From assembly GCA_025435555.1 (NCBI GenBank), contig JAIWWG010000122.1:1-64000 (forward strand): a stretch of 64,000 bases of DNA. Reading direction: 5' to 3'. This DNA comes from Chytriomyces cf. hyalinus JEL632 (lineage: Eukaryota; Chytridiomycota; Chytridiomycetes; Chytridiales; Chytriomycetaceae). This document shows positions 58,439 through 64,000 of the stretch, piece after piece; the stretch's first letter is position 1, and each line of letters begins with the position of its first letter. A program made the translations under genes and the position numbers. Under the pieces are notes generated by a model. That model saw nothing but the letters and a program-made list of their open reading frames with translations, did not search any database and had not been told where the DNA came from.

Positions 58439-60183
58439 TTAATCGTCCCCTTGCTTTGTCACTGTCCTAACTTTCGCATCGCACGGTTTATCCGCATCCA
58501 CCCTTACACCCACATACGACGGAAACCGCGGTACTCCATCCCCAGTAAGCTCTTGAAACCGATACGTAACAATTGCCCCAATAACAGGTGGCTTCTTTCG
58601 TTCCGCATCGCTCAATCCAGTCCCAATCTTGAACTCCTTGCCACTCTGCATTTTACATTTCAGAGACCCCGTCACGTTTGCATTTCGACCTTTCCCAGCC
58701 TCGTATCCAATTACTATAGCCTCGGCGTCGTAAAAGCTTTTTACTTTTAGCAGTGTTGTGCTTCGTTTACCGACATAGAGCGATTTTGGTTGACGCAGCA
58801 TGAGTCCTTCTCCACCTTTGGATTCGACTTGAGCCAGCAAAGTCGTCACAGTGATCTTTGTCCTTGACCTTTTCCTGGGCCAGGATTTTCAAATGCGATG
58901 CTGATGTATTTGACACGAGTTGTTTCAGGTGTTCGATACGGTCTTCGAATGTCTTTTTCGTCAAACTTGGAGAGTCAAAGATTTGAAAGTCCACTTTTTT
59001 CCAGTGCGGTGAATTGATTGTCTGCGTTCATTTGCAGGTTTAGCAACGTGATCGTAAACGTTAGCAATAAATAAATCACATACCTTGACAACAGAAACAG
59101 TTTCACTGAATTTCCCTCTCCCACCAAAAAGCTCTCCATCCAAACTCAAATCTTTCGGCATGGCATCTTTGAACCAATCAGGTGCAGTGAAAATATTCCC
59201 CAGTCTCGAATAAAACTCTTGCTGCTCATGATCCCAAAACGCGCGCACTCCATCCAACTTTTCCGAAACCCACCAACCTGTTGGATCTGTTTTTGACGGA
59301 TCGTATTTCTCTGCGAGTAAAAGCGCCGGTTGTTTTGCTTTGATTTCGTCACGTTTGGCGCGATTCTTGGCTGTGAAACGGTCAGCGGCGGTTGTGTCTT
59401 CGTCATCGTCATTCTTTTTGGATTTGCTGGATGATGGTTTCTTTTTTGGGTTTGTTGTGTCGCTGTCTTCGTCGTCGTCATCGGATGCGGTTCGCTTTTT
59501 TGTGGCGGTTGAACGTTTTTGAGGTGAGGTTGTTGTGTTGCTTCCGAATGGGTTCTTCCACTTGAGCCGTGCATCTTCGTACGCGTCGCCGAGAATCAGT
59601 CGCAAATGTTTGCAACTTCGAGCTGCGTAAAAAAGAATGGTGTGAGTGAAATTAAAGGAGATGAAGAAAGCAAAGAAGAGAAGTATGTAAAGTAGAAAAG
59701 AGAAATAAGGTTTAACATCCGGAATATACGCACCATTGACGGGATGCCGCGAATTCATTTTCCAAGCAATGCATGTGCAGTAATAATGATCGCCCGTCCT
59801 TTTGATCTTATAGCCAAACTCTTCGACGTATTCGCCCTCCTTGAACACTTTCAGCGGTTTTACGCCATTGATGTTTGTGACGTCGTTGACCGTTGCGGAC
59901 TGTGTTGATTCCTCCTCCGAATCAGAGTCGTTGTCTACTACAGGTGTCGAAACCGGCTTGGTTGCTTTCGGCGGTGTTGCTGAGAGCGGTTGGTCATCCG
60001 CTTTAGCTGGTGCTGGTTTTGAGACTGGTGTAGGGACATCAGCTGCCTTCGCGGGATGCGAAAACTCTTGGAGGTGATCCGGGTTTTTCTGCTCCAGCAC
60101 AGGATCAGCAAGTGGGATCACAGATAAAGAACAACACTCACTCTGAAGCACTTGGCTCCGTATCGACAAGGTTGTTTGGGCAT
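58439..60183 (-). CDS. LigE-type ATP-dependent DNA ligase with PBZ and SWIM zinc fingers
   Basis: Seals nicked DNA; small-ligase core like LigE, Chlorella virus and kinetoplast ligases, not Lig1 or Lig4. Exons 60183-60142, 60088-59734, 59622-59084 and 59021-58439; introns 53, 111 and 62 nt. Exons 1-2 join to QPCRYGAKCFR + KNPDHLQEFSHP, a PBZ finger (C-x5-C-x6-H-x5-H) known to bind poly(ADP-ribose). A SWIM finger spans the next junction (YYCTCIAWKMNSRHPVN + ARSCKHL). An acidic/basic linker follows, then ligase motif I SEKLDGVRAFWD (adenylated Lys), SRLGN, motif III LDGELFGGRGKF, motif IV EGLMLRQ, motif V LLKVKS and the OB fold ending TGDGVPRFPSYVGVRVD. One base shift near 58848. About 505 residues. 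Confidence 0.88.
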
Positions 60184-60349: not shown

Positions 60350-63300
60350 CTATTGTACAATGCGGACAGTCGCATCCGAGGCCCTGTCCGCGTCAACACG
60401 TTCCCCCACAAACGATGGGAACCTGGGAATTCCATCGCGCGTCAACTCCTGAAACCGATACGTTACAATCGCTCCGATACTTGGCGGCGCTTCCCTGTCC
60501 AAATCACTTAACCCAGTTCCTATTCGAAACTCTTTCCCACTTTCCATTCTGCACCTCAATGATCCAGTTACTCGCGAATTCTTGCCCCTGCCGCGTTCAT
60601 GCGCAATCACCACCGCCTCAGCATCATAGAAGCTCTTGACTTTGAGCAGTGTCGAGCTGCGTTTTCCCACGTATAAGGAGCCTGGCTTCCGAAGCATCAG
60701 TCCTTCACCGCCTTTTGATTCGATTTGCTTCAGTAGTTTTTCGACATGCTCTTTGCTTTCAACGGGTTCCTGAGGCAAAAGTTTGAGATGTTTGCAGTTG
60801 GATGATGCGACAACTTGTTTCAATTGATCCATTCGCGCCTCGAACGGCAGTTCCGTCATGCTCGGAGAGTCGAAAATGTGATATTCTACTTTCTCCCAGT
60901 CTGGGGAGTTGAGCGTCTGAAAAATGTCGGAATTAAAACCACGTACATCCCCAAAACGAAAGCATCAGGTAAAAGCTCACCTTGACGACAGAAATTGTCT
61001 CAACAAACTTGCCTCGTCCAGCAAACAACTCGCCATCCAAGCTCAAATCCTTAGGCATTGCTTCTTTGAACCAATCGGGTGCAGTAAACAGATTCCCCAA
61101 CCGCGAGAAAAACTGTCCTCGCTCATGATCCCAAAATGTACGAATTCCGTCAAGTTTCTCTGAAACCCAATACCCCGATGGATCCGTTTTTTCCGGGTCA
61201 TATTTGTGTGCAAGTAATAGCGGAGGTTGTTGGGATTTGATTTTGGCCCGATTTTCTCGACCTTTTGAGGTATACATTTCCGCAGATGCGTCCATCATAC
61301 TCTCGGCATCTTCACGTGGGTTTGAAAGATTGGCAGAAGGAATCGAGTCAACATTTTCTGGCTTTGACTGTTTTGCTGCTTTTTTGGCTCGGGCTTTGGG
61401 TGTTTTCGCGTCATCGTTCTGAGGCAAGGAATTGTTTTCCACAGGTGGCACAATCGCAGTATCAGTTTCGGCCATCTGACCTCGGATTGTTTCTGAATCA
61501 AGCTGAAAGGAAGGTTCGTCCGAGATTTCTTCGGAAACCTTGGCGCCTTCAGAATGCTTCGTTTTGACAGATTTCGATCTTTCGGCCCTTTTTGGCTGAA
61601 CAGCAGCATTTTGTTCATCTGCTGCATCAATTGGCCTTGCATCCTCTGTGACATGGATGGCCGATTCCGATATGGAATCAAATTTTGGAGGGGAAAGGTC
61701 AGCAGACATTTCTTTCGATTTCTTATCGCCCTTTGATGTTTTGGCAGATGTCGATTTTTTGGCAGGTTTCTGAGCTTCTTCTGCATCGACTGGACTTGCA
61801 TCATCCGCACCGCGGTCGTCCGATGTCGCGATGGATTCGAGTTTCTGAAGGGACGGTTCAGCAGACGTTTCTTCCGATTCCTTAACGCCTTTGGAATTCT
61901 TTGCTTTGGCAGATTTCGATCTTTTGGCGTTTTTGGGCTGAACATCAATTTTTGGGTCTTCTCCCGCATCAATCGGACTTGCGTCATCTGCACCATGGTC
62001 GGTCGATTTCGCGATGGATTCAAGATTCTCAGTGGAAGGTTCACCACCAGAAATTTCTTCGGATTCCTTGCCCTTTGATGTTTTGGCAGATTTCGACTTT
62101 TTGGTTTCCTTCTTTGGTTGAACAGCAGTATTTTGCCCATCTTTTGCATCCATTGGCGCAGCATCCTCTGCAACATGGCTGTCCGGTTCCGCGATGGATT
62201 CGATTTTTGAGGGGAAGGTTGAGCAGACATTTCTTCCGATTCCTTAACCCCCTTTGATGGTTCGGCAGACTTTGATTTTTTAGCCTGCTTTGGCTGAACA
62301 TCAACTATAAGGTCGCCTTCTGCATCAATCGGCCTTGCATCATCCACACCATGGTCGGCCGATTTCGCGATGGATTCGAGATTCTCAGTGGAAGGTTCAG
62401 CAGACATATCTTCAGATTCCTCAACGCGCTTTGATCTTTTGGCAGTTTTAGATTTTTTGGCCTTCTTTGGCTGAACAGCAACGTCTTCTGCATCAATTGG
62501 ATTTGCATCATCATCAACTTGGTCGTTTGATTTCGCGATTGATTCAAATTTCCGAGGGAATGGTTCAGGAGGTACTTCTTCCGATTCCTTGGTGCCCTTT
62601 GAGGTTTTGGCAGATTTCGACTTTTTGGCCTTCTTTGGCAGAACAGCAACATTTTGCCCATCTTCCACATCAATTGGCTTTGCATCCTCTGCGACATGGC
62701 TGGAAGATTCCGCAATGGATTCGATGTTCTGAAGGGAAGGTTCAGCAGTCATTTCTTCCCATTCCTTGACGCCCTTTGAGGTTTTGGCAGATTTCAATTT
62801 TTTTGCCTTCTTTGGTTTTGGGCCGACTTCCGCATCAATTGGACTTGCATCATCTGCGACACGGTCGGTCGATTTCTCCATGGATTGGAGTTCCTGATGT
62901 GAAGTCCCATCAGACACGTCTTCAGATTCCTCATCAGATTTCTTTGCTTTGGCAATTTTCGATTTTTTAGCCTTCTTTGGCTTGGCAGCGACTTTTGATC
63001 CGTCTTCTTCATCGATTGCTTTTGTTTCATTGCTGTTCTCCACTTTCAGCGCATTTGAAGCTTCAAAGTCAGCTGACGGGTGAACCAAATCGAGGACTGC
63101 TGAAGTTGCGGGCTGCCGTTGCACATTAACCATTTCAGTGGTAGGTGTCGACACGTCTGACGCAGGGTCTCGCGTGTGCGGCCCATAAGTGTGGTCCAAA
63201 TTCAGTTCAGGATAGATCACTTCTTCGGAATATTTTTTCTTTCTACTTTTTGAAGGGCTCTCTGACGGTTTTTTTTTTCGCGCCTGATTTTGAATTCTTT

Positions 63301-64000
63301 GTGGGAACTTCCGCGGGCACGTCATTTTCATGGGACTGCAACAGATCTGACGCATGAAATTCTGATGCCAAAGTCAAAGGTGTTACTGAACCGAGTTCAG
63401 CCGATGTCGCATCCAACAGTTGAGGATCCGATTTTTTGGCGCGAGTTTTGCCAGATTTTTTCGTATCCGCTTTTGGTTCCAGCTTATACAAATCACCTGC
63501 GGTTTCATCCACAGCGTCTGATTGCTTGTATGGGTTTGCCTTTAGCGCATCCGGCAGTTGAGCATCCGCTTTTTTGGCGCGAGTTTTGCGAGATTTTTTC
63601 GAATCCGGTTTCGATTCCAGATCAGAAGGATTTTCCGGGAGTTTATCGCCATCCGAATCGTGTATTTGCTTGTTTAAAGTCGTCTCATGGAAGGTTGATG
63701 AGCCATTTTCTTGCGACTGCAAAATATTCGGCGCATGAGTACCTGTCATATCCGAGGAGGTTGTTGAATCGAATTCGGCTGATTTTGCACGAGGCATTTG
63801 AGGATCCGCTTTTTTGGCACGAGGTTCAGGTGGTTTTATCGAAGCTGGTTTCGATTCCAGATCAGAAGAATCATCCGTGAGCTTATTGATCTCCACAGCG
63901 TTTTCTGATTGTTTGCTGAGGGTAATATCTTTCAGTTTCAAAGACGCGATTGATTCAGCACTCAAATTTCGAGCAGAATCAGCAATCAAGCTGTTTGGAT
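60350..64000 (-). CDS. LigE-type ATP-dependent DNA ligase with long repetitive Lys-rich N-terminal extension (5' end outside window)
   Basis: The C-terminal third is a second small ATP-dependent ligase: SEKLDGIRTFWD (nucleophile Lys), FFSRLGNLFTAPDWFKEA, LDGELFAGRGKF, a 64-nt intron (60917-60980), then EGLMLRKPGS, LLKVKSFYDAEAVVI and the OB fold TRDGIPRFPSFVGERV; stop at 60350. Upstream is an extension of more than 900 residues made of repeats, first three copies of about 50 residues (DLESKPDSKKSRKTRAKKAD-like), then about nine of 55-60 residues (PKKAKKSKSAKTSKG ... ESIAKSxDHVADDAxPIDAE). Frames change near 63260 (a run of ten T) and near 62150. The alternating basic and acidic repeats resemble histone-tail-like DNA-binding linkers. 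Whether it also has a PBZ finger lies beyond the window. Confidence 0.82.
61470..63020 (-). repeat. Coding minisatellite, about nine units of 165-180 bp
   Basis: Each unit encodes KPKKAKKSKSAKTSKG, then ESEEMSAEPS, then LESIAKSTDH, then ADDASPIDAE, with variation. Units keep the reading frame apart from one shift near 62150. Array length is likely polymorphic. Confidence 0.85.

Follow-up and report, generated by a model that had tools for sequence, protein, structure and literature searches.

A gene on the minus strand of a 64,000-nucleotide stretch of contig JAIWWG010000122.1 of the chytrid Chytriomyces cf. hyalinus JEL632, here called the window, encodes an ATP-dependent DNA ligase of the LigE/LigK type with a PBZ zinc finger and a SWIM finger N-terminal to the catalytic core. 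It is probable (about 0.62) that this ligase possesses its own reader of poly(ADP-ribose) (PAR) and is recruited directly by PAR at DNA breaks, PAR binding being suggested by the residues of the PBZ finger.

The gene starts with an ATG at position 60183 and is divided by three introns. Exon 1 (60142..60183, 42 nt) comprises the start codon and the first half of the PBZ finger with C6 (60168-60166) and C12 (60150-60148). Intron 1 (60089..60141), 53 nt long and reading GTGAGT...GAGCAG, divides the finger, the second half of which (60047..60088) contributes H19 (60076-60074) and H25 (60058-60056) and opens exon 2 (59734..60088). Furthermore, exon 2 contains a linker, disordered in the AlphaFold model of the Chytriomyces hyalinus orthologue (P0001), and the first half of the SWIM finger with C118 (59779-59777) and C120 (59773-59771). 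Intron 2 (59623..59733, 111 nt) divides the SWIM finger in turn, so that its second half (C136, 59614-59612; H138, 59608-59606) lies in exon 3 (59084..59622), followed by another linker, ligase motif I with K254 (59260-59258) and motif III. After intron 3 (59022..59083, 62 nt) the remaining nucleotidyltransferase domain and the OB domain are encoded by exon 4 (58439..59021). A second copy of the gene is found on a further contig of the same genome (C61); there intron 1 has the same length with 2 differences, intron 2 shows 6 differences and intron 3 is identical in sequence.

The predicted splice joins C-RYGAK-C-FR to KNPD-H-LQEFS-H, and the resulting N-terminus reads MPKQP-C-RYGAK-C-FRKNPD-H-LQEFS-H. 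The initial annotation had stated that a PBZ finger arises by this join across the 53-nt intron, and this was borne out by the Pfam model PF10283 (zf-CCHH), which matches residues 3-28 of the spliced product with 49.8 bits (E 3.3e-13; cut-off 22.7 bits) over its complete profile (1-26 of 26). The finger becomes visible only after splicing, because a six-frame search of the complete genome (37.8 Mb in 242 contigs), made exon by exon with the PBZ model at E 0.001, did not report this site and gave a single other place, on contig C174. In addition, the sequence matches the solved APLF fingers 2kqb and 2kuo (E 4e-8 with the whole protein, E 9e-14 with the finger alone). The alignment places Y8, F13 (a tyrosine in APLF) and R14 at the PAR-contact positions Y381, Y386 and R387 of APLF, numbered after a legend in PMC6264785.

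The domains of the core assign the enzyme to the LigE/LigK ligases. In the window the reading frame of the core is split by a one-base shift in exon 4, and the split frames match DNA_ligase_OB_2 (PF14743) with 100.8 bits (cut-off 28) and DNA_ligase_A_M (PF01068) with 22.9 bits, the latter below its cut-off of 26.2. The intact orthologue P0001 matches both families, with 98.9 and 59.7 bits, respectively, and the open protein of the C61 copy reaches 307.6 bits against the NCBIfam DNA ligase model NF006592 (cut-off 200). The ligase motifs named I (KxDGxR), III, IIIa, IV and V are among the invariant columns of a hand-picked alignment of 40 rows; they lie in one frame in the C61 copy and in two frames in the window copy. 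Of the earlier claim of a complete LigE-type core the type thus stands, whereas completeness does not hold for the window as it reads. The closest solved structures are 4d05 (E 9e-58), 8u6x and 6gdr (Foldseek TM 0.92 by target length). Neither the N-terminal domain of Lig1/3/4-type ligases (PF04675) nor zf-PARP was matched in the window protein with Pfam.

The SWIM finger had been claimed as well, and this claim is supported by the pattern of its residues. The consensus of SWIM fingers is C-x-C-x(n)-C-x-H, and C118, C120, C136 and H138 fit this pattern; however, the Pfam SWIM model gave no match on the window protein at E 0.1. A first homologue search yielded 7630 matches, 120 of which were listed and all of these scanned for patterns; among the matches listed 113 of 120 contain the SWIM pattern. 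The SWIM residues are invariant in the alignment of 40 rows (picked by hand), and the UniRef names of some relatives include a SWIM-type domain. Many basidiomycete orthologues (P0008-P0013, P0015, P0016 and others) possess two or three SWIM fingers N-terminal to the core and no PBZ finger.

In the proposed mechanism a PARP would detect the break and synthesise PAR, and the N-terminal PBZ finger, with Y8, F13 and R14 at the contact positions, would hold the PAR chain. SWIM fingers generally make contact with DNA or a partner; here the finger, together with two flexible charged linkers, might help the small ligase core to reach the nick, presumably the type of break that is sealed. The core with AMP on K254 would then close the nick and PARG would remove the PAR chain. 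If the finger binds PAR, one fungal enzyme would link the break signal to sealing without an XRCC1- or APLF-like adaptor, as the initial annotation had proposed, and a single purified protein would suffice for a test of this idea. The reading that fits best is recruitment by PAR itself, given the precedents in Dictyostelium, the PAR partners in the genome and the islands in the model of P0001. Of the Dictyostelium proteins, passages of PMC5087659 describe a Ku70 with a PBZ finger required for chromatin enrichment after breaks and a ligase III with a macrodomain. In the AlphaFold model of P0001 the 10-residue means are 78-89 for the PBZ finger, 85-96 for the SWIM region and 86-98 for the ligase, separated by linkers with 43-61; three confident islands are thus connected by poorly ordered stretches.

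PARP genes, for which a search had been recommended, were found in the genome on four contigs (C174, C232, C225 and C9), and a PARG gene on C221. WGR, PARP_reg and PARP domains are present in both the C174 and the C232 gene; ankyrin repeats were tested on C174. These two loci form a syntenic pair with 84 % identity over 992 compared columns and may be homeologues or an old duplication as well as haplotypes. In both copies a PBZ-like finger lies downstream of the PARP gene (L018:1480-3688, minus strand; L019:2558-about 4750, plus strand) in the same orientation; scored on L018 alone with 24.0 bits (cut-off 22.7), it is perhaps a C-terminal PBZ of the PARP. PF04675 was matched at three loci (C168, C46 and C177), one of which may perhaps belong to a ligase III, and zf-PARP at C175 with 32.5 bits, below the cut-off of 39.3. 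No match to XRCC1_N was found in the genome, but there was none in 14 control genomes either, so that absence of this domain is not shown.

The gene model has to be weighed against two other explanations. A start downstream of a spurious exon 1, giving a protein without the PBZ finger, would agree with four chytrid gene models which begin past exon 1 (P0003, P0007, P0014 and P0099); in these the missing finger may be a loss in annotation or a real one. The comparison with other chytrids makes such a start very improbable. Among the matches listed, 24 rows carry chytrid names; two represent a PBZ-less paralogue or a fusion with the paralogue, and of the remaining 22 orthologues 16 have the whole finger, two are broken at the intron site and four are the later-starting models. 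One broken model (P0004) has the second half only. The other, from Entophlyctis (P0005), has both halves, separated at the precise point of the junction by 14 extra residues (V...Q), which is how an intron left unspliced would be translated. The position of the intron within the finger explains how the PBZ can drop out of gene models, and with two of 22 models broken there, the expectation that it is easily missed in gene prediction proved correct. P0001, 92 % identical to the window protein (97 % to the core of the C61 copy), shows the same join, and a contiguous PBZ was found in 17 of the 120 matches listed (the 16 named chytrids and the marine transcript P0108), all 17 with PF10283. P0108 and a second transcript-derived protein from other eukaryotes, P0123, possess PBZ, SWIM and ligase alike.

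It would further be possible to regard the window copy as a decaying pseudogene with uninformative anatomy. The frame shift of one base at about 58.85 kb separates motifs I to IIIa from motif IV (58810-58793), motif V (58753-58736) and the OB domain (PF14743, E 4e-29), which lie in another open frame (58439..58888, minus strand), and the adjoining paralogue is frame-broken on the same contig. However, an uninterrupted frame of 505 residues is present in the C61 copy and one of 506 residues in P0001. Between the coding sequences of the window and of C61 there are 25 substitutions and a single-base indel; upstream of the shift dN/dS is 0.20 (8 non-synonymous and 11 synonymous changes), and downstream of it there are 6 synonymous changes and no non-synonymous one. 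Moreover, in a comparison of 15.6-52.7 kb of the window with C61, 7 of 13 long C61 open reading frames (ORFs) with a window counterpart, some of which may not be genes, contain indels whose length is not a multiple of three, and the reverse comparison also gave 7 of 13. These recurrent indels suggest residual indel errors in the assembly of this region. Since both C61 and C. hyalinus are open and indels between the contigs are common, a consensus error is the likeliest cause of the shift rather than decay, with a young null allele as an alternative, and the pseudogene explanation is improbable.

A larger share of the doubt falls on the function of the finger. The PBZ may have drifted to another role, such as a protein or RNA contact or a plain zinc knuckle, while the SWIM finger, the core or a partner brings the ligase to breaks. 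The pattern scan identified 16 chytrid proteins with a PBZ, and the first finger of each was compared with APLF. Ten have arginine where APLF has R387 and the other six (Spizellomyces, Gaertneriomyces, Geranomyces) have glutamine; at the Y386 position 15 of 16 have an aromatic residue and Physocladia has isoleucine, so that conservation of the PAR contact is incomplete. Agreement at the zinc ligands and at the aromatic Y381 position (16 of 16) is no test because the pattern itself requires these residues. The SWIM finger is kept more widely than the PBZ by pattern (113 versus 17 of 120 among the matches listed), and the basidiomycete orthologues among these matches are without PBZ in the pattern scan, which implies that PAR reading is not essential to this ligase. 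In addition, tandem PBZ fingers are cited in PMC6264785 as binding 1000 times tighter than single ones; the single finger of the chytrid gene may by analogy be a weak binder. Together with the broken frame of the window copy these points weigh against recruitment by PAR. Nevertheless, the window gene itself has Y, F and R at the contact positions, close to APLF, and PAR-linked domains recur across the LigE family. A changed role of the finger is therefore rather unlikely, and direct recruitment by PAR is preferred.

The recurrence of such domains was followed in a second search with the PBZ-bearing P0108 as query, which listed 120 of 132 matches with 103 new rows (P0121-P0223), all scanned for patterns; among the matches listed SWIM was found in 96 of 103 and PBZ in 10 of 103, the PBZ share in non-fungal rows being inflated since the query itself carries the finger. 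Ten rows were analysed with Pfam, the remaining ones by precomputed accession. The arrangements comprise PBZ-BRCT-PBZ-SWIM-LigE in Pelomyxa (P0121), FHA-PBZ-PBZ-SWIM-LigE in P0122 and likewise in Diplonema (P0144, its FHA below cut-off with 18.3 versus 23.1 bits), BRCT-LigE-macro in P0223 and LigE with C-terminal PBZs in P0217 and P0221. Many rows combine SWIM, LigE and WGR, and those with organism names are bacterial; according to Pfam P0128 and P0141 have WGR alone, while P0203, P0209 and P0212 have WGR, PARP_reg and PARP.

A third search with P0209 (557 matches, 120 listed; new rows by precomputed Pfam) brought the proteins with SWIM-LigE-WGR-PARP_reg-PARP in a single frame to five among the 120 matches listed (P0203, P0209, P0212, P0232 and P0233), two of them from bacterial metagenome-assembled genomes (Thermoanaerobaculia, P0232; Acidobacteria, P0233). 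A collection of bacterial and archaeal genomes yielded 56 loci, two of which encode SWIM, ligase, WGR and PARP together within a single plus-strand frame: L037:3968-6892 on a contig of 105 kb and L038:3809-6742 on one of 22 kb. Both come from the P0232/P0233 groups and overlap with the five proteins, so that they are not independent. Of the other 54 loci 13 are WGR-PARP without ligase and 41 ligase without PARP (flanks up to 4 kb). In 3 of 3 aligned fusion proteins the PARP part has kept HGS, GIYF and DEY, which we take to hold the catalytic H-Y-E residues. One further protein, P0258, has LigE together with a zf-PARP domain (PF00645, precomputed Pfam), another module of the PAR system.

The fusions of SWIM-LigE to FHA-PBZ-PBZ, WGR and WGR-PARP lend more weight to a coupling with PAR. 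A tree from the core columns of 48 hand-picked rows was used in preference to an earlier quick tree (72 rows, cruder labels, 9 changes of PBZ state). In it ten bacterial-type rows are split off from those treated as eukaryotic (99/92); all rows other than the two with C-terminal PBZ group together (98/88), and the chytrids (98/91) and the basidiomycetes (100/99) form groups as well. The single ascomycete row stands apart from the other fungi and pairs with a further protein (96/75). The N-terminal PBZ requires three changes when six rows of unknown or C-terminal PBZ state and the paralogue are left out, and four with the paralogue. With a bacterial root the most parsimonious course is a single early gain followed by two losses, one in basidiomycetes and one in the ascomycete row, on a tree in which several deep forks are weak and PBZ-less protists may be under-sampled by the PBZ-bearing query. 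More tentatively, SWIM-LigE could be an ancient PAR-coupled family and not a set of chance fusions, with a PBZ or macro reader in eukaryotes, WGR as the break sensor known from PARPs in bacteria and the writer in a few Acidobacteriota-type bacteria, where one polypeptide would both signal and seal; the chytrid gene might then be the fungal remnant of an early-eukaryote form with N-terminal PBZ that was lost in Dikarya. The occurrence of PBZ, macro, WGR and a whole PARP on one small ligase offers a handle on the role of ADP-ribosylation in bacterial repair.

Ligases of this kind are in part already known. A PBZ N-terminal to LigK/LigE was described in 2018 (PMC6264785), and passages of PMC6264785 and PMC10665377 report PBZ-LigK/LigE fusions in bdelloids, some animals and the fungus Mortierella, the last with a C-terminal PBZ (described 2018 and 2023). 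The proposal that the architecture may be undescribed in fungi has to be rejected, as Mortierella is published and PF10283 occurs together with the ligase domains in 16 public gene models of chytrids. According to a literature passage PBZ proteins are nearly absent in Ascomycota except for Eurotiomycetes. In the open-licence literature no report was found of SWIM on LigE, of a split PBZ exon in chytrids or of WGR-PARP-ligase fusions, which is weak evidence, and the terms SWIM, WGR and chytrid are absent from the main texts of PMC6264785 and PMC10665377.

The bdelloid rotifer ligases AvLigE-A and -B resemble the chytrid enzyme in the LigE core (PF01068 and PF14743), the PBZ and a link to the DNA-damage response; they have one or two C-terminal PBZs among PST-rich repeats (PMC6264785, PMC10665377), whereas the chytrid gene has a single N-terminal PBZ, split by an intron, and a SWIM finger between PBZ and core. 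MvLigE of Mortierella verticillata is likewise a fungal PBZ-LigE, reported as X-ray-induced (PMC10665377), but with a C-terminal PBZ. The hemichordate Glandiceps (P0126) shares the N-terminal position but has two fingers, PBZ-PBZ-SWIM-LigE (44 % identity to P0001, 48 % to P0108). Bacterial minimal LigE proteins (4d05, 6gdr and 8u6x; chains of 247-297 residues) have the same catalytic core and fold and consist of the core only. Bacterial SWIM-LigE-WGR(-PARP) proteins have SWIM, LigE core and a link to the PAR system in common with the chytrid gene but possess a C-terminal WGR or whole PARP and no N-terminal PBZ. With APLF, CHFR and the DNA ligase III-XRCC1 pair the chytrid enzyme would share PAR-directed recruitment; APLF and CHFR are not known to contain a ligase, and ligase III, a member of a different ligase family, is recruited through XRCC1.

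The window contig (C27) and C61 read as haplotypes. OB_2 is found at four places in the genome, two on each of these contigs, and C61 is collinear with C27 in the same order between about 2 kb and the end of C61 at 52 kb, with some stretches present on C27 only; the blocks mostly show 96-98 % identity, in places 86-95 %. Within about 12.5-31 kb of the window several stretches have matches of 75-89 % in C61 at non-allelic positions, a picture expected of a local gene family in tandem.

The second OB_2 place on C27 belongs to a LigE paralogue arranged head-to-tail with the ligase gene (60350..64000 and past the window end, minus strand), its stop 166 bp upstream of the ATG at 60183. Pfam identifies a LigE core in a separate exon of the window copy, and the paralogue has a long degenerate lysine-rich repeat array; the SWIM finger lies beyond 64000, by eye also interrupted by an intron, with the repeats between SWIM and core. 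On the window contig the frame is broken at about 62.2 kb, whereas the C61 copy (L017:3299-7421) has a single stop-free frame of 1179 codons, in which Pfam gave no match. No PBZ was detected in the paralogue by a pattern scan blind to an intron-split finger, and its exon 2 appears by eye to be without the second half. The C. hyalinus counterpart (P0049) groups with the query pair with a support of 100/97 in the tree of 48 rows. The upstream neighbour of the tandem ligases (L023:1489-2834, minus strand) resembles by eye a SET-domain protein.
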